DNA of 64,000 bases, taken from assembly GCA_021325275.1 (NCBI GenBank), contig JAJPHL010000055.1, positions 1 through 64,000 of the forward strand. Direction: 5' to 3'. How positions within the stretch are numbered: the first letter of the stretch is position 1; every line of letters starts with the position of its first letter. Origin of the DNA: Terriglobia bacterium (GTDB taxonomy: Bacteria; Acidobacteriota; Terriglobia; JAJPHL01). The notes beneath the pieces were generated by a model. The model saw nothing but the letters and a program-made list of their open reading frames with translations, made no database searches and was not told the origin of the DNA. The translations under genes were made by a program, and so were the position numbers. This document shows positions 16,103 to 27,744 of this stretch, one piece after another.

Positions 16103-16564
16103 CTACGAACCCCTTACGGGCGCGGCGGGCAGCGGCGGATGATTGACCACCAGCCAGAAGAGACCGACCTGATCCACGATCTGGCGAAATTGTTCAAAGT
16201 CCACCGGCTTTTGAATATAAGCGTTGGCGCCCAAATTGTAGCCTTCCACCAAGTCCCGTTCTTCCTTCGAGGCGGTGAGAATCACCACTGGAATACTTTT
16301 GGTGCGGGGATCCGATTTTACTTTCTTGAGCACCGACAGTCCATCGATGCCGGGCAGTTTGAGATCAAGCAGGACCAGCCGCGGCTGCCGCTCGATGGCG
16401 CGATCCGCGTGGGCGCCCTCGCAGAAAAGGAAGTCCAGCGCCTCCTGCCCATCTCGCGCAACCTCCACGTGCTTAGCTAAATTCCGGCCGCCCAGGGCAT
16501 GAAGCGTCAACTTCAGATCTTTGGGATTATCTTCCACCAAAAGAATATCTGCGGGTTCACTCAT
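16103..16564 (-). CDS. Single-domain response regulator (Rcp-like)
   Basis: 153 residues forming one receiver domain: acidic pair in LLVEDNPKD, phosphorylated Asp67 in VLLDLKLPG, Thr in VVILTASKEE and Lys119 in YIQKPVDFEQF. There is no output domain. The short C-terminal extension resembles the Rcp1-type regulators that pair with phytochrome-like and PAS kinases. Its ATG overlaps the stop of the upstream kinase by one base (TAATG), so the two are translated together and are the likely cognate pair. Confidence 0.9.
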   Translation of the reverse strand: MSEPADILLVEDNPKDLKLTLHALGGRNLAKHVEVARDGQEALDFLFCEGAHADRAIERQPRLVLLDLKLPGIDGLSVLKKVKSDPRTKSIPVVILTASKEERDLVEGYNLGANAYIQKPVDFEQFRQIVDQVGLFWLVVNHPPLPAAPVRGS

Positions 16565-18513
16565 TAACCGGCCTCCCGCCCAAATTCTGTAGGCGTCAGA
16601 CGCGACGTCTCAGCGCCCGGCGTTCCCAAGGTGAAATAAAACGCGGCGCCGCGATCCAACTCGGCCTCGGCCCACACCCGTCCGCCATGCTTATGGATGA
16701 TTCGCTGAATGGTGGCCAACCCAACGCCGGTGCCCTCGAAGTCTTCCTGCCGATGCAGCCGTTGGAAAACTCCAAACAGCTTGGTGGCGTTCTTCATGTT
16801 GAAACCGACGCCGTTGTCCTTCACGAAGAACTGGCGCTCCCCGTTGCGAACGATGGCTCCCAATTCGATCACGGCATGCTCCCGAGGACGCGTGAACTTC
16901 ACGGCGTTGGAGAGCAGATTCATGAGCACCTGCTTCATCAGGCCTGGGTCGCACTCCACAAAGGGCAACTTTTCGATCTTCCACTCGATTGCTCGACGCG
17001 CTTCGGTGCGCTGCAATTCCGTGACTACTTCCTGGGCCACGGCACTCAATCCGGTGATCTGAAGAACTAATTCCTTCCGGCCGACGCGCGCGAGATTCAA
17101 AAGGTCGTCCACCAATCGGCCCATTTCGCGCGTGCTGGCGCGAATGTCACGAAGAAATCCCTGCGCGTCCGCCGATAGATTAGTGCCGGCCTCCTCTTCC
17201 AACAGTTTTGAGAAGCCGTCGATGTGCCGGAGAGGAGCGCGGAGATCGTGCGAAACGGAGTAAGTGAACGCTTCTAATTCTTTATTGGCCGCTTCCAGTT
17301 CCGCGCGCCGCCTTTCTAAGTCCGCATTCAAGCGGCGCACTCCTTCCTCGACCCGTTTTCGTTCCGTGACGTCGCGAATCGCGCTGGATACCAGCACACC
17401 GTCCTCGGTTTCCAAAGGACTGAGGCTGATCTCAACCGGAAACTCGCTGCCGTCCTTGCGCAAGCCGTATAGTTCCAAGCTTGCTCCCATCGGTCGAACG
17501 CGCGGCTCGTGAAAGAATCCGGAGCGATGCCCCGGGTGGCGCGCGCGAAAGCGCTGCGGGATCAGGATCTCGATATCCCGGCCCAGCAATTCATCGCGCT
17601 GATGTCCGAAGAGCTTTTCGACCTGGGCGTTGACCAGAACGATTCTTCCTTGTGGGTTCACGACCACAACGGCGTCAGGGGCGGCCTCCAGAAGCGCGCG
17701 AAACTTCTGTTCCGCCCGCTTACGCTCGGTGATGTCGCGTATGGCGCTGGACACCAATACGCCTTCATCGGTTCGGATGGGACTCAAACTGATTTCGACG
17801 GGAAATTCGCTGCCGTCCTTGCGCAGTCCATAAAGCTCCAGGCTGGCTCCCATCGGGCGAACGCGCGGCTCGTGAAAGAATCCGGTGCGGTGGCCGGGAT
17901 GGCGGCCTCGAAAACGTTCCGGTATCAGGGCCTCGATTTCGCTGCCCAACAACTCTTCCCGCGGATAACCGAAAAGCTTCTCCACTTGCGCGTTGGCGAA
18001 TACGATTTTGCCTTCCGGATTGACCACCACCATGGCGTCCGGAGCGGCCTCCAGAAGTCCCCGGAACTTTTGCTCCGCCGCACGCAATTCCTCGGTCAGG
18101 TGCGTCTCGCCGGAAATGTCCTTCGAGATGATCAGCCAGCCGAGCGGTTGCCCGGCGGGATCATGCCGCGGCGTTACGACGACGCGCGCCATGAAGCGTT
18201 CCCCGTTACGCCGGATTCTGGTGATGGTTCCCTCCCACTTGCCATCTTGCAAAGCGCGGCGCTCGATCTCCTGCGGTTTGCCGGCCTTAACGTCCTCGGG
18301 TGGATGTAGAACTCTGGAGTCGGCTCGTCCGATGACTTCATCGCGTTCGTATCCGTACAGTCGGCGGGCCCCTTCGTTCCAAAGAACAATATGCCCGTTC
18401 GTATCGGTGCCGATGATCGAATATTCCGTGGAGGATTCGAGTATTCCGGACAGGAATTCCAGGGCGTGCGCCGGATCGCTTGCAACGCCGCCGTTGATTT
18501 GTGTGGGAGACAT
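16564..18513 (-). CDS. Cytoplasmic PAS sensor histidine kinase with a duplicated PAS module
   Basis: 649 residues with three PAS domains (about 20-140, 147-267, 268-388), a coiled-coil link ([20 protein letters not shown]), a HisKA box [16 protein letters not shown] with His422, and an ATPase domain ([31 protein letters not shown]). The second and third PAS domains are a near-perfect internal duplication of 121 residues each. It is the first gene of the operon with the receiver protein and the hybrid kinase, so it is the probable signal input. The signal is unknown. Confidence 0.9.
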
Positions 18514-18677
18514 CGCCCACCTTTCTATCTCCCATGCTAGATGGAAATCGCACCGGCTCGGAAAAATCTATCAGCCAATCCGAAAGGCTTCCGCTTTCGG
18601 GAAACATCTGATAAATGCGCGGGGACATCTTGAGTGCCTTTCGGATATATCTCCGACAGGTTTCCGCCCCGCTAGTC
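18514..18677. other. Upstream region of the sensor kinase operon with a hairpin
   Basis: Non-coding. A perfect 7-bp stem with a 7-base loop, CCGAAAG...CTTTCGG, lies at 18580-18600, 67 bases upstream of the kinase ATG. It could be an operator or a 5'-leader structure of this operon. A leftward open frame crosses the region and the repeat beyond, but it has no family features and overlaps the kinase gene. Confidence 0.4.
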
Positions 18678-18754
18678 TTTTTGAGAACAAGGTGAAAGAT
18701 CATCGGAAGTGCGCGACGCACTTTTCGAAGCCCCCGGCACAAGCTCCATGAACT
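18678..18754 (+). repeat. Left 77-bp direct repeat bounding the restriction-modification island
   Basis: It matches 22539-22615 in the same orientation at about 90 percent identity by eye, with one single-base insertion and one deletion cancelling out. Inside is the stem AAGTGC-gcgac-GCACTT. The two copies enclose the controller, endonuclease and methyltransferase genes. No integrase or transposase is present between them. Confidence 0.85.
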
Positions 18755-18851
18755 TGCCGAAGCTTTTCCCAGTGAGAGTGGAAAGCGACCCCTGCTGAAA
18801 ATGGCGGGACCGTCCGACTTCCATACGCGGCTCTCCGCCGCAAACATAGCG

Positions 18852-18880
18852 GTCTAATAGTCGATGTTGGACTATTAGAA
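18852..18880 (+). promoter_or_regulatory. Candidate C-box operator of the restriction-modification controller
   Basis: GTCTAATAGTC (18852-18862) and GACTATTAGAA (18870-18880) each resemble the GACT-N3-AGTC half-operator bound by restriction-modification controller proteins. Together they form a perfect 9-bp dyad, CTAATAGTC/GACTATTAG, around 7 bases. The site lies 28 bases upstream of the controller start, where autoregulation would act on the controller-endonuclease transcript. Confidence 0.65.
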
Positions 18881-18908
18881 ATCCGACTCTACGCTAGGGC
18901 GAGTGCCC

Positions 18909-19160
18909 ATGTACAAGTCGATTCACTCAAAAGAGTACCGCGCGGTCTTGCGCCTCCTACGGAGAGCGCGCGAAGCCGCCGGTGTGACTCAGGCTGAGTT
19001 TGCAAGACGATTAGGGCAGAGCCAGTCGTTTGTCAGTAAGTGTGAAAGAGGCGAACGCCGCTTAGACATCGTTGAGTTGAGGCAATTTTGCTTGGTACTG
19101 AAAATCAGCTTTACGGGCTTTGTCCGGAAAGTCGACGAGGAACTGGGTGCGGGCCGATGA
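18909..19160 (+). CDS. XRE-family controller (C) protein of the restriction-modification system
   Basis: 83 residues, essentially one helix-turn-helix of the XRE/Cro type: LRRAREAAGVTQAEFARRLG and SQSFVSKCERGERRLDIVEL. Size and position match C proteins, which delay endonuclease expression until the genome is methylated. ATG 18909 is chosen; an in-frame GTG two codons earlier is possible. The stop overlaps the endonuclease ATG (ATGA, 19157-19160), the usual C-R arrangement. A dyad of C-box type lies just upstream. Confidence 0.8.
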   Translation: MYKSIHSKEYRAVLRLLRRAREAAGVTQAEFARRLGQSQSFVSKCERGERRLDIVELRQFCLVLKISFTGFVRKVDEELGAGR

Positions 19161-20050
19161 ATGGCGGTTTACCGGTCGTACCGGCCCCGACTGATAGATT
19201 CACTGAACTGGCAAGGCGATACAGTGGTGCGATGCCGGAAGCGTTCATTGCCGTGCTGTGCCCATTACTCATCCCTATTGAAAGCCTGAATAAGGAAATC
19301 ATCAGGATTCCGGGACAGAGCCATTATCGCGCTTCGTTTTCGGTCAGGATAACTGACGAAAGCAGGGGAGTTCTCCAACGAGGCCGAACTGGAAAGTTCG
19401 TCCCGGCCAACTACGCAGGCGCCGGTGGTCTCTGGCGAGAGATCGCCAAGGGGCGAATCATTGATGTCGACGGAGCTACAAGCATTGCAGGTGGGGAGGT
19501 CTATGCCGGCGGGCGAAAGCGGGACCTTGAACACGCACTGACAGAATTGCAGCCGACTGACTTTCTAGAGATTGACCAGTTTGGCGCCTCCGCAAAGGTT
19601 CTGAGCGGGCTGACGGAATACTATTTAGTCGAGATTGCTAAGGCCAGCGGCTATTCTGTCAGGCGCATGCCTGAAGACACCGCGCGACACCTGGGAACGT
19701 ATTACAACTACGATTTCGAATTCGAGCGTGCGGGAGAGCGGCGTAAAATCGAAGTGAAATCCATATGGGGGACAGATACCCGCTTCGCTCGGTTGATCCA
19801 CAGCCGCGGACCAGGGTATCCCACAAGCAGCTGTAAGTTTGAAACACAAGACATATTCGCAGTAAGCCTTTTTTTGAGGACAGGCAATATCAGAGACTTC
19901 GCATTCGCGCGATCGGTCCCGAGAGACATCAGACCGTATGGGCTGCCGCGTGCCCAGAGATTTCCGGACCATGTAAACCAGAATCCTCGTTGCGAAGTAG
20001 GCGATGGGACTTGGTTTGCGACGATAGACGAAGTGTGGAGTCTCGAGTAA
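19157..20050 (+). CDS. Probable type II restriction endonuclease
   Basis: 297 residues with no strong named family. YYNYDFEFERAGERRKIEVK places Asp186 and Glu199-Val-Lys201 in the PD-(D/E)xK arrangement of restriction enzymes. It is translationally coupled to the controller gene and ends 3 bases before the tail of the methyltransferase gene, so the three form one system. ATG 19157 is preferred because of the ATGA overlap; codons upstream belong to the controller frame. The recognition sequence cannot be deduced. Base composition looks less GC-rich than in the flanking genes, consistent with acquisition (not computed). Confidence 0.7.
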   Translation: MNGGLPVVPAPTDRFTELARRYSGAMPEAFIAVLCPLLIPIESLNKEIIRIPGQSHYRASFSVRITDESRGVLQRGRTGKFVPANYAGAGGLWREIAKGRIIDVDGATSIAGGEVYAGGRKRDLEHALTELQPTDFLEIDQFGASAKVLSGLTEYYLVEIAKASGYSVRRMPEDTARHLGTYYNYDFEFERAGERRKIEVKSIWGTDTRFARLIHSRGPGYPTSSCKFETQDIFAVSLFLRTGNIRDFAFARSVPRDIRPYGLPRAQRFPDHVNQNPRCEVGDGTWFATIDEVWSLE

Positions 20051-20053
20051 TCG

Positions 20054-22294
20054 TCAGGCTTTCCACTCACTTGTTAGCCGATCGATCCGTTCGCACAATT
20101 CTCGGTCGAGTTGCTGCGCTTTCTCGCGGAGTTGCATCATCTTCTTGCAGCACTCCTCCATGTCTGCGAGGTAGCACTTTTCTATTGGAAGGACAACATC
20201 AAGGAGGCACGATTCCTCAACCGCAGGGTACGCGATGCCAACATTGTTTCTGAGGACTTGAGCGTTTACGAAATCAGATTGGAGCAGCCGCGCGAGGATG
20301 ATCGGCTCGATTGACGTGCACCTCAGGACTGCGAAGCCCGTCGAGCAGACAGCGCCATCCAACTGGTTAGGGACGATGCCCACCGCCTTACGCTCAGGCC
20401 GCACGGTCGAAACAAGGACATCGCCCGCCCTAACGAGCTTCCTAGCGCGACTGGGTGGGTCAGGGGTCCCCATCTCTTTTCCTCTAACCATGCAATCATG
20501 TGGGCTAACGTCGCCGATCTCGATGTACTGGAACGTCGGTCTCCCTGACTGACGAGGGTCAACTCTGTCATTTGCAAGTATCGCAACATCCCGAACGCGC
20601 AGGCACGCCTGGCCGCACATTTCAAGCTTTCGCTGAATGGCGATAGGAAGGCTCGCGTGAAATGTGGCGTCCCATCTTGACTCATTGGGAGCAAGGTCGA
20701 AGAGTCTGCCGATGCGGAGCGGCGCTTCACCATGGATCTCCCGAAGCAGCACCGGCAGGTCTCCGGGGCCTATGGAAACCTTGTGCCGCTGGGAGCCCCT
20801 TGTTTCCACATCGAAGCCTACGTTTCCACAGATGCCGAAATATACGGTATCTCGCCGCGTTCCTTTGTTTTCCGTTTTCTGCAGGTGGAGGACTGACGTC
20901 TTAGTGTTCGTACCGGCAACTCCGAACGTTACAGACGGAAGGGACACCACGCTTCGAAGACGAATGGAGCTTGAGATACCGCGGCGAAGGTCGGCGAAGA
21001 GACCCCTATTAGTAAGAACACTATCGGGAACGATCGCAACGAGTATTCCATTCGGTGCCAACCAATCGATGTACCGTTCAAGGAATAATAACTCAGAATC
21101 GACGCTCTGCACTGGCCGTCCAGCCCACTCCCTGGTCAACTTGTAACCGTCAAGATCCAGGGCACCGAATTCAGCGCCGAATGGCGGATTCGTCAGGATG
21201 ATTTTCGCTGTTCCCGCAAGGGCATTGGTCAGTCGGGCGTCTGGTCCAACACGGACCAGTGAATTCGCGAGGTGAAGGTTCGCTGCCGGAACGCCGAAGA
21301 GAGCCAGATTCGTCAACGCGAGCCTGATCATTCGCTCGCTCTTGTCGATTCCGACAAGCACTGTCGCCATCATCGATTCGATCCACGATGATAGTGCGGC
21401 CTCGCCGTGGCGATCTCGAACCTGCGGCTGCAGCACACGAAGCATTTCAGACAGGAAGGAACCCACGCCGCACGAAGGATCTAGCACGATGCCAGCGCTC
21501 GTACACGCAGCTGGGTTGATCAAGGCATCGAGATCCGAGGGGTCGAGGGATTGAAGGGCAAGACGCACCATGAAACTCACAACTTCGGGAGGGGTCAGGT
21601 ACTGCCCCAACTCCTTCTCGTCAGAGAACGAGTCCGCCAAAAACTGGCCGAAAGTGTCGTTGAGAACATCGACGCCTTTGGCACCACGGATTTGACCGAC
21701 TAGGTCAGGTGAGGACAACTGTCCAAAACAGTCGATGACCTCCTGGGCAAAGCGGTCCTCCGAGTCCTTGAGACGTAGTTGAAAGTCTTCAGGCTGAAGC
21801 TCGTGAGACAGAGAGGTTGGAAGATGCGACCGAATGGTCTCTGCAATAAAGTTACGCAGTCCGGCCGCTGGCCGTCCATCGCCCACTATTCTGTCGCAAA
21901 TCCCTGTCCCACCTCCATCGATTGACATTACGTGCGCGAAGAGCAGCTTACCTAATTCATCAATCGCCTCGTGCCGAGACGAAAGGCGACCGCTTCGGTG
22001 TAGAATCTCTCTCATTTCTTGGAGTACTACCTGGAGGGCTTCCCGAATCCCATGTGCATCGCGACTGGGAAAGTCGAATAATGCCGTCTGAAGGGCGATG
22101 CCTCGGCGTAGGCGCTCATTCGCGAGTGCGCGAATTCTTCCTTCCATGTCGGCGCGCGGGGCCGCTTGGCCCGACGCCCAACGTAGAAGTGTAGGGGACG
22201 AGACCCCAAGCTCGTTTGCCAGGCCCTCCATTGAACCGTGGCCGCTCTCGATCAGAGATCGCGTTAGGGTGGAGATCGGGGTATCGTAATCCAT
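20054..22294 (-). CDS. N-6 adenine DNA methyltransferase with N-terminal HTH and C-terminal target-recognition domain
   Basis: 746 residues. Residues 20-60 form a helix-turn-helix-like segment (GLANELGVSSPTLLRWASGQ). The catalytic domain is of the HsdM N6 type, with GQYLTPPEVVSF (230-241), the AdoMet loop LDPSCGVGSFL (271-281) and the catalytic TNPPFG (368-373). The last 200 residues resemble one half of a type I specificity subunit (EIGDVSPHDCMV, RAGDVLVSTVRPERK, then a C-terminal coiled coil), so modification and recognition are in one chain. It converges on the endonuclease gene and should protect the host at the same sites. Confidence 0.85.
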   Translation of the reverse strand: MDYDTPISTLTRSLIESGHGSMEGLANELGVSSPTLLRWASGQAAPRADMEGRIRALANERLRRGIALQTALFDFPSRDAHGIREALQVVLQEMREILHRSGRLSSRHEAIDELGKLLFAHVMSIDGGGTGICDRIVGDGRPAAGLRNFIAETIRSHLPTSLSHELQPEDFQLRLKDSEDRFAQEVIDCFGQLSSPDLVGQIRGAKGVDVLNDTFGQFLADSFSDEKELGQYLTPPEVVSFMVRLALQSLDPSDLDALINPAACTSAGIVLDPSCGVGSFLSEMLRVLQPQVRDRHGEAALSSWIESMMATVLVGIDKSERMIRLALTNLALFGVPAANLHLANSLVRVGPDARLTNALAGTAKIILTNPPFGAEFGALDLDGYKLTREWAGRPVQSVDSELLFLERYIDWLAPNGILVAIVPDSVLTNRGLFADLRRGISSSIRLRSVVSLPSVTFGVAGTNTKTSVLHLQKTENKGTRRDTVYFGICGNVGFDVETRGSQRHKVSIGPGDLPVLLREIHGEAPLRIGRLFDLAPNESRWDATFHASLPIAIQRKLEMCGQACLRVRDVAILANDRVDPRQSGRPTFQYIEIGDVSPHDCMVRGKEMGTPDPPSRARKLVRAGDVLVSTVRPERKAVGIVPNQLDGAVCSTGFAVLRCTSIEPIILARLLQSDFVNAQVLRNNVGIAYPAVEESCLLDVVLPIEKCYLADMEECCKKMMQLREKAQQLDRELCERIDRLTSEWKA

Positions 22295-22538
22295 GAATGC
22301 ACCAAGTGTGACCTCAAACTTATCACACGCTACTTCTCAATCGTACACCTTGACCATGAGCAGCTACTCCTGTTGCGGGAAATTGGGAGGAATACGGTCG
22401 CATGGAGGGGCAGGATTTATGTTGGACCAACGCTCTAGCCGGTGACCTCGACTCCATCAGCTTCTTGCGGAGAGCCGGATCCCATACCTCACGAAAAGTT
22501 CGTCCGAGCCTGTGGACAGCCTTAGACCCGCGTAGCCG
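22295..22538. other. Upstream region of the methyltransferase gene
   Basis: No gene is supported. It holds the methyltransferase control region with a 6-bp dyad close to the start codon. Rightward and leftward open frames exist but lack family features, codon character and ribosome sites. The stretch together with the repeat at 22539 forms the right edge of the island. Confidence 0.4.
22306..22328 (-). promoter_or_regulatory. Candidate operator of the methyltransferase gene
   Basis: GTGTGA-N11-TCACAC is a perfect 6-bp dyad whose inner edge lies 11 bases upstream of the methyltransferase ATG at 22294. A repressor bound here would block initiation or ribosome access. The N-terminal helix-turn-helix of the enzyme is a natural candidate for self-repression; this link is inferred. 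Confidence 0.45.
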
Positions 22539-22615
22539 TTTTTCAAAACAAGCTGTAAGGATCATCGGAAGTGCACGACGCACTTTTCGAAGCCCCGGCA
22601 CAAGCTTCATGAACT
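22539..22615 (+). repeat. Right 77-bp direct repeat bounding the restriction-modification island
   Basis: Partner of 18678-18754, same orientation, with the central stem AAGTGC-acgac-GCACTT. Its last 9 bases include the final codons and stop of the SnoaL-like gene, so the repeat abuts a gene end, as expected for an insertion junction. Confidence 0.85.
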
Positions 22616-23080
22616 CGGCTTAGCCGCTTCCGCGGCATGAAACGAAACGACGCGCCAACCACCTTCGCCGCGTATGTAGACCTTCGTGAACCGCCAATCA
22701 TCCTCCACCTCGCGTCCGCCGATTGTGCGCCTACGCTGCAATCTCCCACTGACAACAGCCGCGGAACCGTAGGTGCGAATGTGAAGGTCGGAAGTCTCGT
22801 ATCGCGAAAACTTCATGCGGCCTGACCGTGCGAACGAAAGTGCCTCGGCTTTGCTCATCACCGGCATGAGCGGGACGGCCACTTCTAAGTCATCGGCCCA
22901 TAAATGTTCCAAAGCATCCGCATTTCCCTGCAGGTGGGCTTCGTTCCAAACTTTTTCCAAGCGCGCGAGTTCTTCCCGATCTGCCGAAGGACCGGATCCA
23001 TTGGACGGCGGCGCTTTCTGGCCAGACGCGACACCCGAGGCAAGCAATATCAGGAACCAGGCAGCATAAAGCCGATGCAT
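22607..23080 (-). CDS. Secreted SnoaL/DUF4440-like (NTF2-fold) protein
   Basis: 157 residues with a signal peptide (LYAAWFLILLASGVASG). A compact NTF2-like fold follows: EELARLEKVWNEAHLQGNAD, ALEHLWADDLEV and a C-terminal RFTKVYIRGEGGWRVVSFHA. This pattern belongs to the DUF4440/SnoaL-like group of small ligand-binding or unknown enzymes. It is not in an operon. Its stop codon sits inside the right direct repeat of the neighbouring island, and before insertion it may have lain directly upstream of the sensor kinase gene at 18513. The 242 bases to the next gene show nothing. Confidence 0.75.
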   Translation of the reverse strand: MHRLYAAWFLILLASGVASGQKAPPSNGSGPSADREELARLEKVWNEAHLQGNADALEHLWADDLEVAVPLMPVMSKAEALSFARSGRMKFSRYETSDLHIRTYGSAAVVSGRLQRRRTIGGREVEDDWRFTKVYIRGEGGWRVVSFHAAEAAKPSS

Positions 23081-23322: not shown

Positions 23323-26300
23323 GTGAGAACAGTCCGGTTCGCCCTTTTCGCCATCGCTATTCTGCTGAGCGGGGCGCTCGCCTGGGGACAAGGTGTGATT
23401 ACCACCGTCGCCGGGGGAAATCCTTGGGTGTTCACCGGCAACAGGGGTCCCGCCATCAACGCGCCGCTGGGAATCCTCACCGGCATCGCGGTCGACTCAC
23501 TAGGAACCATTTACGCCGCGGACAATAGCAACTCCCTGGTCGTAAAGATCACCCGCGACGGAGCGTTGACCATCGTCGGCGGCGGCGGGCAAGCCGACCC
23601 GTACAGCAGCAATGTCCCGGCCACCAGCCTGCCGATGGCCCCAAACGGAGTGGCGGTGGATGCGACCGGCAACATTTACGTCGCCGATAATTTTGGCCTC
23701 ATCCGCAAGATCAGTACAGCCGGAATCGTTACGACGGTGGCAGGCAATGGAACTTCCGCCTTTTCCGGCGACGGCGGCCCGGCCACTAGCGCATCGTTGA
23801 ACTCTCCGGCGGGCGTGGCGCTCGATAACGCCGGCAACATCTACATCGCCGACGCAAACAACAATCGCATTCGCAAGATCAATCCGTCGGGAATCATCTC
23901 GACGGTCGCAGGTAATGGAACCTCCGCCTTCTCCGGCGACGGCGGACCGGCCGGCAGCGCGTCGTTGAACAATCCGACCGGCGTCGCGGTAGATCCGGCA
24001 GGTAACGTCTATATCGCCGATGCCTACAACAACCGGGTGCGCAAGGTTAGCGCGGGCATCATCACCACCGTCGCAGGCGGCGGGCAGGGCGGCGATGGCG
24101 GTCCCGCCGCGAGCGCGTTGATCAATTTTGTGCGAGGTGTAACCGTAGACGCTTCCGGCAATCTCTATATCGCCGCCGTTAACGACAGCAATGTTCGCAA
24201 AGTCAACGCCGGTACGATTTCAACGGTGGCCGGCAACGGAACGGCCGCCTATTCCGGTGACGGCGGTCTAGCTACGGCAGCCTCGCTCTATTATCCCTAC
24301 GGCGTGGCACTCGATAGCTCGGGAAACATCTACGTCGCCGACAGCAACTATTCGAGCGGTTACATTCGCCAGGTCAGTCTGACAACCGGCAACATCACCA
24401 CGCTGGCCGGCAACGGTGGATACAAGTTCGCGGGCGATCTCGGCCCGGCCACCGGCGCTACCCTCAATCATCCGGGCGGCGTGACTGTCGATGCGTCGGG
24501 CAACGTCTATATCTCCGACTCCTATAACAATCGCATCCGTAAAGTCGGTTCGTCCGGCATCATCACTACGATCGCCGGAAATGGACTTCCGAATTTCTCC
24601 ACGGGCGACCCGGCCACGAGCGCATCGCTGCAACAGCCCGCCGGCGTGGCCGTGGATGCCGGAGGAAACCTCTACGTCGCCGACCGCGGCAACCATCGCG
24701 TGCGGCGCGTTACCAACGGAAGCATTTTTACGGCGGCGGGAGGCGGGACAGGCGGCGACGGCGTTTCAGCCACCACGGCCGCCTTGAATTCTCCCACGGC
24801 GGTGGCCATCGACGCGGCGGGAAATCTCTACATCGCCGATCAATACGCGTGCCGGATTCGCAAAGTGACCAACGGAATCATCTCGACCGTCGCCGGAACC
24901 GGTGACTACGGCTCATCCGGCGATGGTGGTCCCGCGATCAACGCGAAACTATCGAATCCCTCAGGGGTCGCCGTGGATAGTTCGGGCAATATCTACATCA
25001 GCGATTACGGCAACAATCGCATCCGCAAGGTCAGCCCGGCCGGCACAATCACGGCGTTTGCAGGCAACGGAACGTCAGGCTATTCCGGCGATGGCAGCCC
25101 AGCCGTGAACGCGATGCTGAGCAATCCTCAGGGCGTTGCGGTGGACGTATCGGGCAACGTCTTGATCGCCGACGGCAACGGCGTCGTCCGAAAGGTGACT
25201 CCCGCGGGAATCATCAGCACGGTGGCGGGCGGGGCGCCGTGTTGTTCCCCGGGCGACGGCGGTTTGGCCAAGAATGCGTGGTTGAGTTCCCCATCGGCGG
25301 TGGCAATCGACGCCACCGGAAATATCTTCATCGCCGATTCGGACACGGATCTGGTGCGCGAGGTGTTGGCCGCCGCGCCTTCACTGGCCGTCTCGCCGAC
25401 GACGTTGGGTCTGGCGGCCACTTCTGGATCGCCGGGCGGCACGCAGCAAATCACGGTGGTCAGCAATGCATTGGGCGTGGCTTGGACGGGACAAGCGCAA
25501 AGCACCGGCGCATGGCTCTCTGTTTCACCGTCCGGAACCGCTCCGGGTGCGGCCGACGTGAGCGCCGATGCGTCGAATTTGGGGCCCGGAACCTATCAGG
25601 GCACCGTGACGATCAAAGCGCCTCTGGCTGTTCCCTCATCGCAAACGGTTTCGGTTCAACTCGTGGTTTCCGCGGTGATGCCGGCGCGACTCACCTTACA
25701 GCCCTCGTCATTCAATTTCCAGACGCCGGCGGGCGCGGCCGGCGTTCAGGTCCAGACCTTGCAAGTCGGCAACGCTGGAAGTGGTATTTTGCAATGGACC
25801 GCATTCGCCACCACCACCTCGGGCGGAAGCTGGCTCACGATTTCCGTGCCTTCCGGCTCGGCTTCCTCCGCGTCGCCCTCAATGATCCAAATCACGGCGG
25901 GTTCCGGCTCGCTCGCTGCCGGAACTTATTCGGGCCAAGTGACGGTGCGCAGCCAAACCACCGGCGAGACCAACAACATTCCGGTGACGCTGCTGATCTC
26001 GTCGGGAACGCGAACGCTGTTGCTGAGCCAGACGGCACTCCTGTTCACCGGCGTGCAGGGAGGAACGATCGTACCTCCGCAAAACTTCTCCGTTTTGAAC
26101 ACCGGTCAAGGCGTGTTGAATTGGAACGCGGTCAACGTGATCTATTCCGGCGGAAACTGGTTGAGCTCTTCGCCCGGCACGGGAAGTACCGATGCGGCGT
26201 CGCTTCAGATCCCGCAAATCACCGTGGGCGCGAATACCACTGGGATGACTGCCGGAGATTATACCGGCATCGTCAGCGTGAGTGGCTCGTCGGCGAACAA

Positions 26301-27744
26301 CTCTCCGCAGATTGTTACCGTAAAACTGCACGTGCTGCCTCCCGGCAGCAATCCGGGAGTTTTGGTGAGACCGACCGGACTCGTCTTTGCCGCGGCGGCC
26401 GGAACCTCGTCGCCGCCCCCCCAGACCGTGACGGTGGCGACGGCCGCCTCCGGCGCCAACGACTTCACCGCGGGTTCCTTGACGCGCACGGGCGGCAACT
26501 GGCTGAACGTGTCGTCAAGGGGTGAGTTCTCCATCGGCCAGCCGGGATCTCTAGTGGTCCAGCCAGTCCTGGGAAACTTGTCTCCCGGCGTGTATCAGGG
26601 AACGGTGGCCCTTTTGTTCGCCGATGGCAGCGCGCAAACCGTTGGCGTCACGTTTTTGGTCATCGGCGCAGCAGGCACTGGGAGCAGCCTGTCGCCGGAA
26701 GACACCGGGTGCGTACCGCAAAAGCTGTTTGCCGCGGACCGCAGTGTGGGCAGCAGTTTTTCTTCACCCGTCGGCTATCCGCGGACTCTGGAGGTCTATG
26801 TAGCGGACAACTGCGGCAACCCGTCAGGCAACGGGACGGTGATTGCGTCGTTCTCGAACGGCGATCCTCCGATTGTGCTGGTCAGTCTTCTCAATGGAAT
26901 CTACACCGCGACGTGGCAGCCGGGAACGGCCGCGGCTCAAGTGGTAATTACAGAAACCGCGAGTTCACCGGGCCTGGCGTCCGCGGTGCTGCAAGTTTCC
27001 GGTCAAGCGCCGGACAGTCCCTCGGCTCCCGCGATCAGCGCCGGAGGAGTGGTGAATGGCGCGAGCTTCGCGGGCGGCGCGCCGCTGGCGCCGGGCGGCA
27101 TCATCTCTTTGTTCGGGAAGAACCTGGCTGCGGGATCCGCCTCGGCCAGCCAATTGCCGTTGACAACGGCACTCGGCGGACTCAGTGCGAGCGTGGGCGG
27201 TGAAGACATGCCGTTGTTCTATTCAAGCAGCGGCCAGATCAACGCGCAACTGCCGGTCGACTTGCCGACAAACAGCAAATTGCAAGTGATCGTCAGGACC
27301 ACGGCGCAAGGTGCGGCGTCCATTGCCACCGTCCCTGAGACGATCAACGTGGGAAGCGCCGCGCCCGGTATTTTCACGGTGCTCTCTTCCGGCAAGGGAG
27401 ACGGAGTGATTCTGCACGCCGACAACACGCTTATCAACGCGGCCAATCCCGCCAAGGGTGGCGAGGAAGTGGTGATCTACTGCACCGGCTTGGGACCAAC
27501 CACTCCGTCATTCCCAAGCGGCACTCCGGCTACGGCGCCGAACGACACGGTGAACCCGGTGACCGTTACCATCGGCGGCCAGAACGCCGTCGTCGTGTAC
27601 AAAGGGCTTACGGCGGAATTGGTCGGACTCTATCAAATCAATGCGTATATTCCTGCGGGATTGTCGGGGAGCCAGCCGATTCAAGTCACAGTCGGACAGG
27701 GGAACTCAAGTCCCGCCGGCGTGACGATTTCCGTAGTGCCGTAG
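23323..27744 (+). CDS. Giant secreted NHL-repeat protein with BACON-like and TIGR03437 domains
   Basis: 1,473 residues. GTG 23323 has an excellent ribosome site (GGGGGGAG) and leads into a signal peptide (FALFAIAILLSGALAWG). About twelve NHL propeller blades follow (to residue about 685), several nearly identical, with a recurring VAGNGTSAFSGDGGPA and IYIADANNNRIRKI pattern. Next come three or four BACON-like beta domains (NWLSSSPGTGS, GTYSGQVTVRSQTTGE). The C-terminal 230 residues are the TIGR03437 domain (VVNGASFAGGAPLAPGGIIS to YQINAYIPAG). The family is an exported Solibacter speciality of unknown role; binding of carbohydrate or protein at the cell surface is a guess. Confidence 0.9.
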   Translation: MRTVRFALFAIAILLSGALAWGQGVITTVAGGNPWVFTGNRGPAINAPLGILTGIAVDSLGTIYAADNSNSLVVKITRDGALTIVGGGGQADPYSSNVPATSLPMAPNGVAVDATGNIYVADNFGLIRKISTAGIVTTVAGNGTSAFSGDGGPATSASLNSPAGVALDNAGNIYIADANNNRIRKINPSGIISTVAGNGTSAFSGDGGPAGSASLNNPTGVAVDPAGNVYIADAYNNRVRKVSAGIITTVAGGGQGGDGGPAASALINFVRGVTVDASGNLYIAAVNDSNVRKVNAGTISTVAGNGTAAYSGDGGLATAASLYYPYGVALDSSGNIYVADSNYSSGYIRQVSLTTGNITTLAGNGGYKFAGDLGPATGATLNHPGGVTVDASGNVYISDSYNNRIRKVGSSGIITTIAGNGLPNFSTGDPATSASLQQPAGVAVDAGGNLYVADRGNHRVRRVTNGSIFTAAGGGTGGDGVSATTAALNSPTAVAIDAAGNLYIADQYACRIRKVTNGIISTVAGTGDYGSSGDGGPAINAKLSNPSGVAVDSSGNIYISDYGNNRIRKVSPAGTITAFAGNGTSGYSGDGSPAVNAMLSNPQGVAVDVSGNVLIADGNGVVRKVTPAGIISTVAGGAPCCSPGDGGLAKNAWLSSPSAVAIDATGNIFIADSDTDLVREVLAAAPSLAVSPTTLGLAATSGSPGGTQQITVVSNALGVAWTGQAQSTGAWLSVSPSGTAPGAADVSADASNLGPGTYQGTVTIKAPLAVPSSQTVSVQLVVSAVMPARLTLQPSSFNFQTPAGAAGVQVQTLQVGNAGSGILQWTAFATTTSGGSWLTISVPSGSASSASPSMIQITAGSGSLAAGTYSGQVTVRSQTTGETNNIPVTLLISSGTRTLLLSQTALLFTGVQGGTIVPPQNFSVLNTGQGVLNWNAVNVIYSGGNWLSSSPGTGSTDAASLQIPQITVGANTTGMTAGDYTGIVSVSGSSANNSPQIVTVKLHVLPPGSNPGVLVRPTGLVFAAAAGTSSPPPQTVTVATAASGANDFTAGSLTRTGGNWLNVSSRGEFSIGQPGSLVVQPVLGNLSPGVYQGTVALLFADGSAQTVGVTFLVIGAAGTGSSLSPEDTGCVPQKLFAADRSVGSSFSSPVGYPRTLEVYVADNCGNPSGNGTVIASFSNGDPPIVLVSLLNGIYTATWQPGTAAAQVVITETASSPGLASAVLQVSGQAPDSPSAPAISAGGVVNGASFAGGAPLAPGGIISLFGKNLAAGSASASQLPLTTALGGLSASVGGEDMPLFYSSSGQINAQLPVDLPTNSKLQVIVRTTAQGAASIATVPETINVGSAAPGIFTVLSSGKGDGVILHADNTLINAANPAKGGEEVVIYCTGLGPTTPSFPSGTPATAPNDTVNPVTVTIGGQNAVVVYKGLTAELVGLYQINAYIPAGLSGSQPIQVTVGQGNSSPAGVTISVVP

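Follow-up and report, generated by a model that had tools for sequence, protein, structure and literature searches.

How did a complete type II restriction-modification (RM) unit come to lie between two long direct repeats, next to the end of an unrelated gene? The question is raised by a locus in a 64,000-nucleotide stretch of the genome of a Terriglobia bacterium, referred to as the window in the following. An initial annotation had described two repeat copies of about 90% identity in the same orientation, lying directly outside a controller-endonuclease-methyltransferase set and each containing an AAGTGC/GCACTT stem. The stem is indeed present in both copies and the copies frame the set with no other genes between them, but the repeat is longer than first described, growing from 77 bp to 87 and 89 bp with an overall identity of 88%. 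The features of the locus are as follows.

16564..18513, minus strand: PAS-domain sensor histidine kinase gene, the left neighbour (open reading frame and domain match)
18668..18754, plus strand: left direct-repeat copy, 87 bp, core 18695-18734, aligning with 22527-22615
18705..18730, no strand: hairpin core GGAAGTGCGCGACGCACTTTTCGAAG of the left repeat copy
18853..18879, no strand: perfect inverted repeat TCTAATAGTC-N7-GACTATTAGA, ending about 24 bp upstream of the XRE gene
18903..19160, plus strand: XRE/HTH_3 regulator, controller-like, 85 aa (Pfam HTH_3, 44 bits)
19157..20050, plus strand: putative restriction endonuclease, 297 aa, without a Pfam, NCBIfam or PADLOC model
20054..22294, minus strand: N6-adenine DNA methyltransferase, M-S fusion, 746 aa (N6_Mtase 209-486, S-subunit-like 565-731)
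22527..22615, plus strand: right direct-repeat copy, 89 bp, core 22557-22596
22567..22592, no strand: hairpin core GGAAGTGCACGACGCACTTTTCGAAG of the right repeat copy, one loop base different from the left
22607..23080, minus strand: DUF4440/SnoaL-like gene, the right neighbour, whose 3' end abuts the insert

The repeat pair and its surroundings

Both copies lie on the same strand; their alignment has 90 columns, four of them single-base indels, and an identity of 87.8%. Identity to the left copy is 90% for the 77-bp stretch 22539-22615 of the right copy, and the two copies are 95% identical in the 40-bp core (18695-18734 / 22557-22596). Local alignment of flank against flank scored 113, and shuffled flanks reached 24 at most. 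The space between the copies is taken up by the XRE, endonuclease and methyltransferase genes with their promoter regions and by nothing else. No transposase or recombinase was found between them in the gene list or among the domain matches, as the initial annotation had noted, and a flanking insertion sequence with transposase and inverted ends around the RM unit was likewise not found. A tRNA or other known RNA was not detected within the repeat, and the hairpin of the left copy folds no better than its shuffles (z -0.13).

On the right side the repeat does overlap a gene end, as had been claimed: its final 9 bp (22607-22615) supply the stop of the DUF4440 gene and the two codons before it. 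In G594, a member of the class, the orthologous gene stops at this same point, two codons earlier. This places one breakpoint at the gene end, with the reservation that homology would fade there anyway. We also considered the repeat as a conserved 3' flank of the DUF4440 gene, and rejected this as two orthologues in the class end near the same codon with no repeat downstream. A match that holds the DUF4440 gene and the repeat together was not found in any other of 399 genomes of the class; note that the relatives compared comprise no other member of the family and one order-mate. Beside the insert, positions 23323-27744 of the window encode a 1473-aa protein in which NHL repeats with a period of about 165 bp form a long array.

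Copy number and genomic background

The initial annotation had proposed a search of the genome and its relatives for the repeat. In the 6.86-Mb genome (75 contigs) exactly two copies were found, and with up to three mismatches allowed the 26-base hairpin core still returned those two sites only; neither degenerate copies elsewhere in the genome nor an extra copy near the integrase-like genes of other contigs were detected. None of 100 relatives contains the repeat, the best match being 19 bp long and at chance level. The repeat is thus not scattered among unrelated genes. Searches of plasmids and phages gave chance-level matches only, and a search of viral contigs gave no match.

As a background, 1.24 Mb of the same genome were scanned for pairs of direct repeats with a minimum length of 50 bp, a minimum identity of 85% and a spacing of 0.5-10 kb. 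Six pairs qualified, the one framing the RM unit included. Three of the other five belong to dispersed families of 25-34 copies, one, resembling the ends of transporter genes, has five copies, and the last has two copies of 50 bp that lie inside or beside open reading frames. In a cruder control, 9 of 1000 random flank pairs of this genome reached a score of at least 113, presumably reflecting paralogous genes and dispersed repeats. As random flanks can reach this score, low copy number and framing of the unit count as much as the score itself. The 1.24 Mb also hold more than 30 copies of a dispersed hairpin repeat (ACCGCCGATGAACGCAGATRAACGCCGAT...), for example at G000:C51:38689-39610 and C55:201982-202810 (L075, L099).

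The three genes of the unit

The XRE regulator, which shows weak matches to PADLOC control-protein models, overlaps with its gene end the start of the endonuclease gene (19157-19160). The inverted repeat upstream of it is the sole match to its pattern in the window, was found in 0 of 100 shuffles, is distinct from the 88-bp repeat, and is probably the operator of the regulator. Two features of controller-type type II RM systems are thus present here, namely a small HTH regulator whose gene overlaps that of the endonuclease, and an upstream palindrome as its likely operator.

The endonuclease sequence had no match in Pfam, NCBIfam, PADLOC or the sequences of the PDB. Across seven homologues, residues D186, E199 and K201 are invariant in the context DF...E-x-KS-x-WGT, a pattern compatible with the active site of PD-(D/E)XK nucleases. 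It is on account of this pattern, and because the homologues adjoin the same type of methyltransferase wherever the contig extends that far, that we refer to the 297-aa protein as an endonuclease. The methyltransferase, encoded convergently with it, has an HTH-like N-terminus and a single specificity domain resembling type I S subunits. A methyltransferase that carries one fused recognition domain works as a dimer and has an interrupted palindrome as its target, examples being M.DrdI (GAC-N6-GTC), M.XmnI and M.XcmI (review table in PMC3874165), and M.AhdI represents a split form of such enzymes (PMC2878638). By analogy, the M-S fusion of the window may be expected to act as a dimer on an interrupted palindrome as well.

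The GC content of the three genes is 0.54-0.56, and their GC3 of 0.57-0.62 compares with a mean of 0.706 (s.d. 0.058) for the host open reading frames in the window. Note that the GC3 of the DUF4440 neighbour (0.605) is likewise low, at the level of the RM genes, so that composition alone is weak evidence of foreign origin. The distribution of the endonuclease is the second line of evidence. Among 395 further genomes of the phylum it is absent, and it was not found on plasmids and phages; homologues of 58-65% identity occur in a Verrucomicrobia MAG, in Citromicrobium, in a Prolixibacteraceae MAG, in Clostridium clostridioforme and in two viral contigs, that is, in Verrucomicrobia, Alphaproteobacteria, Bacteroidota and Bacillota in addition to the viral sequences. 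Wherever the contig covers that side, the methyltransferase adjoins the endonuclease in convergent order. We read this scattered occurrence of a conserved gene pair as a sign of horizontal spread.

Related units on other vehicles

The unit of Citromicrobium sp. JLT1363 (L058/L161), with an endonuclease 62% identical over the alignment and a methyltransferase 35% identical to those of the window, belongs to an island of about 10 kb (G478:C17:77611-87952), in which it is the first cargo past a tRNA-Thr gene. This island combines a phage-type integrase, an XRE gene and the RM unit, and closes with a 126-bp direct repeat, 94% identical, made up of the 3' end of the tRNA and the sequence next to it. 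In the closest family member of this Citromicrobium, the contig breaks off at the tRNA. In the Prolixibacteraceae MAG (L059:8767-12283; endonuclease 60% identical), the convergent genes lie between attC-like sites of the form RYYYAAC...GTTRRRY with long imperfect stems, and the unit is probably an integron-type cassette. On a viral contig (L062:1-7030), a related unit sits between the genes for the terminase large subunit and the portal protein. Long direct repeats at the ends of the unit were not found in L057, L060 and L062, and the 88-bp repeat is absent from the RM units of 58-65% identity found elsewhere. Since related units on other vehicles lack it, the repeat is not intrinsic to the RM unit but marks its insertion in this genome.

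Origin of the repeat-framed insert

Taken together, we hold it to be probable, if with some reserve, that a horizontally acquired type II RM unit was inserted here once and long ago, leaving repeats of about 88 bp, either as a case of the long-target-duplication class or through an equivalent crossover with a circular donor. Insertion of RM units with long and variable target duplications, in the order of 100 bp, is described in the cited accounts (PMC3874152; PMC3031569; PMC4978471), and the class is credited there to Nobusato 2000 and Furuta 2010, as reviewed in PMC3874152. The complete unit would have entered between the DUF4440 and sensor-kinase genes and left a direct repeat of about 88 bp on either side; by the alternative route, a circular donor carrying one repeat would have been integrated in a single crossover. 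The copies would then have drifted to 88% identity. Their simultaneous origin by duplication is an assumption on our part, as they differ by about 12%, indels included, and they may instead represent an intergenic pair that was already in place before the RM unit. Once established, the XRE protein would bind the palindrome at 18853-18879 and time the expression of the endonuclease, the M-S fusion would methylate an interrupted palindrome as a dimer, and the endonuclease would cut the same site when unmethylated. Loss of the unit would be countered by post-segregational killing, so that the insert would be kept despite its possible deletion by recombination between the repeats.

Several other explanations have to be weighed against such an insertion. 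In the first of them, the cassette has no integrase of its own: the repeats would be its attL and attR sites, a tyrosine recombinase supplied in trans would act upon their palindromic core, and integration would have taken place at the 3' end of the DUF4440 gene. The position of the right copy at a gene end would fit, and recombinase-like genes are available on other contigs. Moreover, the related unit in Citromicrobium lies in an integrase island between its 126-bp, 94% identical tRNA-Thr repeats, which indicates that repeats of such length can be att sites. On the other hand, a recombinase would presumably require identical sequence for its crossover at the palindrome centre, and there one base distinguishes the copies (GCGAC and ACGAC), a difference that later mutation could explain; there is neither a third copy in the genome nor a tRNA at the repeats, and the related RM units do not carry them. 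No integrase gene lies between the repeats according to the gene and domain list and an inspection by eye of the open reading frames of the window, and integrase-like matches are confined to other contigs. We therefore regard this explanation as rather unlikely, and its specific form, a minimal 3.9-kb RM cassette without a recombinase that is moved in and out in trans at an 88-bp site, which contains a palindrome and lies where a protein gene has its 3' end, and that carries an unmodelled endonuclease family, as quite improbable. Of the mobile cassette suggested initially, the acquired insert framed by a two-copy repeat remains, while no positive evidence was found for movement in trans, and the repeat, missing from related units on other vehicles, is not an intrinsic cassette end. 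It is also unlikely that the copies are two independent insertions of a low-copy MITE- or REP-like hairpin element that either enclose the RM unit in the manner of a composite or served an incoming RM fragment for recombination. Both do contain a hairpin core and have a low GC content of 0.52-0.53, and other dispersed hairpin repeats occur in the genome, but an element of this type is at odds with two copies and no degenerate ones, and with flanks that do not form an inverted repeat, their score in inverted orientation being 22 and in the range of shuffles.

A function of the repeat within the RM locus, as a bidirectional terminator or insulator or as a regulator site at both ends, appears very unlikely. 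Each of the two outermost genes does have a copy upstream of its start, and the hairpin is accompanied by a short run of T; however, the hairpin was not called in a terminator scan, the likely operator is the other palindrome at 18853-18879, copies on the same strand have opposite orientations with respect to the two promoters, and related RM units do without such a repeat. An integron gene cassette with attC sites, finally, can hardly be entertained. RM systems on integrons are known (PMC3874152), and the related Prolixibacteraceae unit lies between attC-like sites, but the genome yielded no integrase_gron match above the cut-off. The window repeats themselves were rejected as attC sites, as they are without RYYYAAC and GTTRRRY ends and their single-stranded fold is no better than that of shuffles.

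Comparison with known systems

The locus illustrates well a type of event that is already known; it does not represent a new kind of mobile element. With the long-target-duplication insertions it shares direct repeats in the order of 100 bp around a type II RM unit that is complete, the absence of a recombinase or transposase inside, and an intergenic or gene-end target. It differs in that the published cases, to the extent that the cited accounts present them, compare genomes with and without the insert, whereas here there is one genome and the identity of the copies has fallen to 88%. The Citromicrobium island is alike in its related endonuclease and methyltransferase, its XRE gene and its long imperfect direct repeats, and unlike in its size of about 10 kb, its phage-type integrase and the derivation of its repeats from a tRNA gene. 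What the window adds is a well-bounded, repeat-framed RM insertion in a lineage without close sequenced relatives. It also adds to the vehicles on which one rare RM unit is found across phyla, at least three in number: a tRNA island, an attC-like array and a phage structural operon. Such changes of vehicle support the view of the RM unit as a persistent selfish piece of DNA.

At the level of the enzymes, the combination of an N6-adenine methyltransferase bearing a single S-type recognition domain with a separate endonuclease is that of the M.DrdI, M.XmnI and M.XcmI systems, and a controller protein is shared with the AhdI system. In contrast to all of these, the endonuclease of the window falls into no family model searched, and the methyltransferase has its HTH-like N-terminus. 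The endonuclease family is new to the model libraries that were searched and could be catalogued. In its C. clostridioforme representative, a gene for an HhH-GPD DNA glycosylase-like protein is located directly upstream of the endonuclease (L060:8298-8963).
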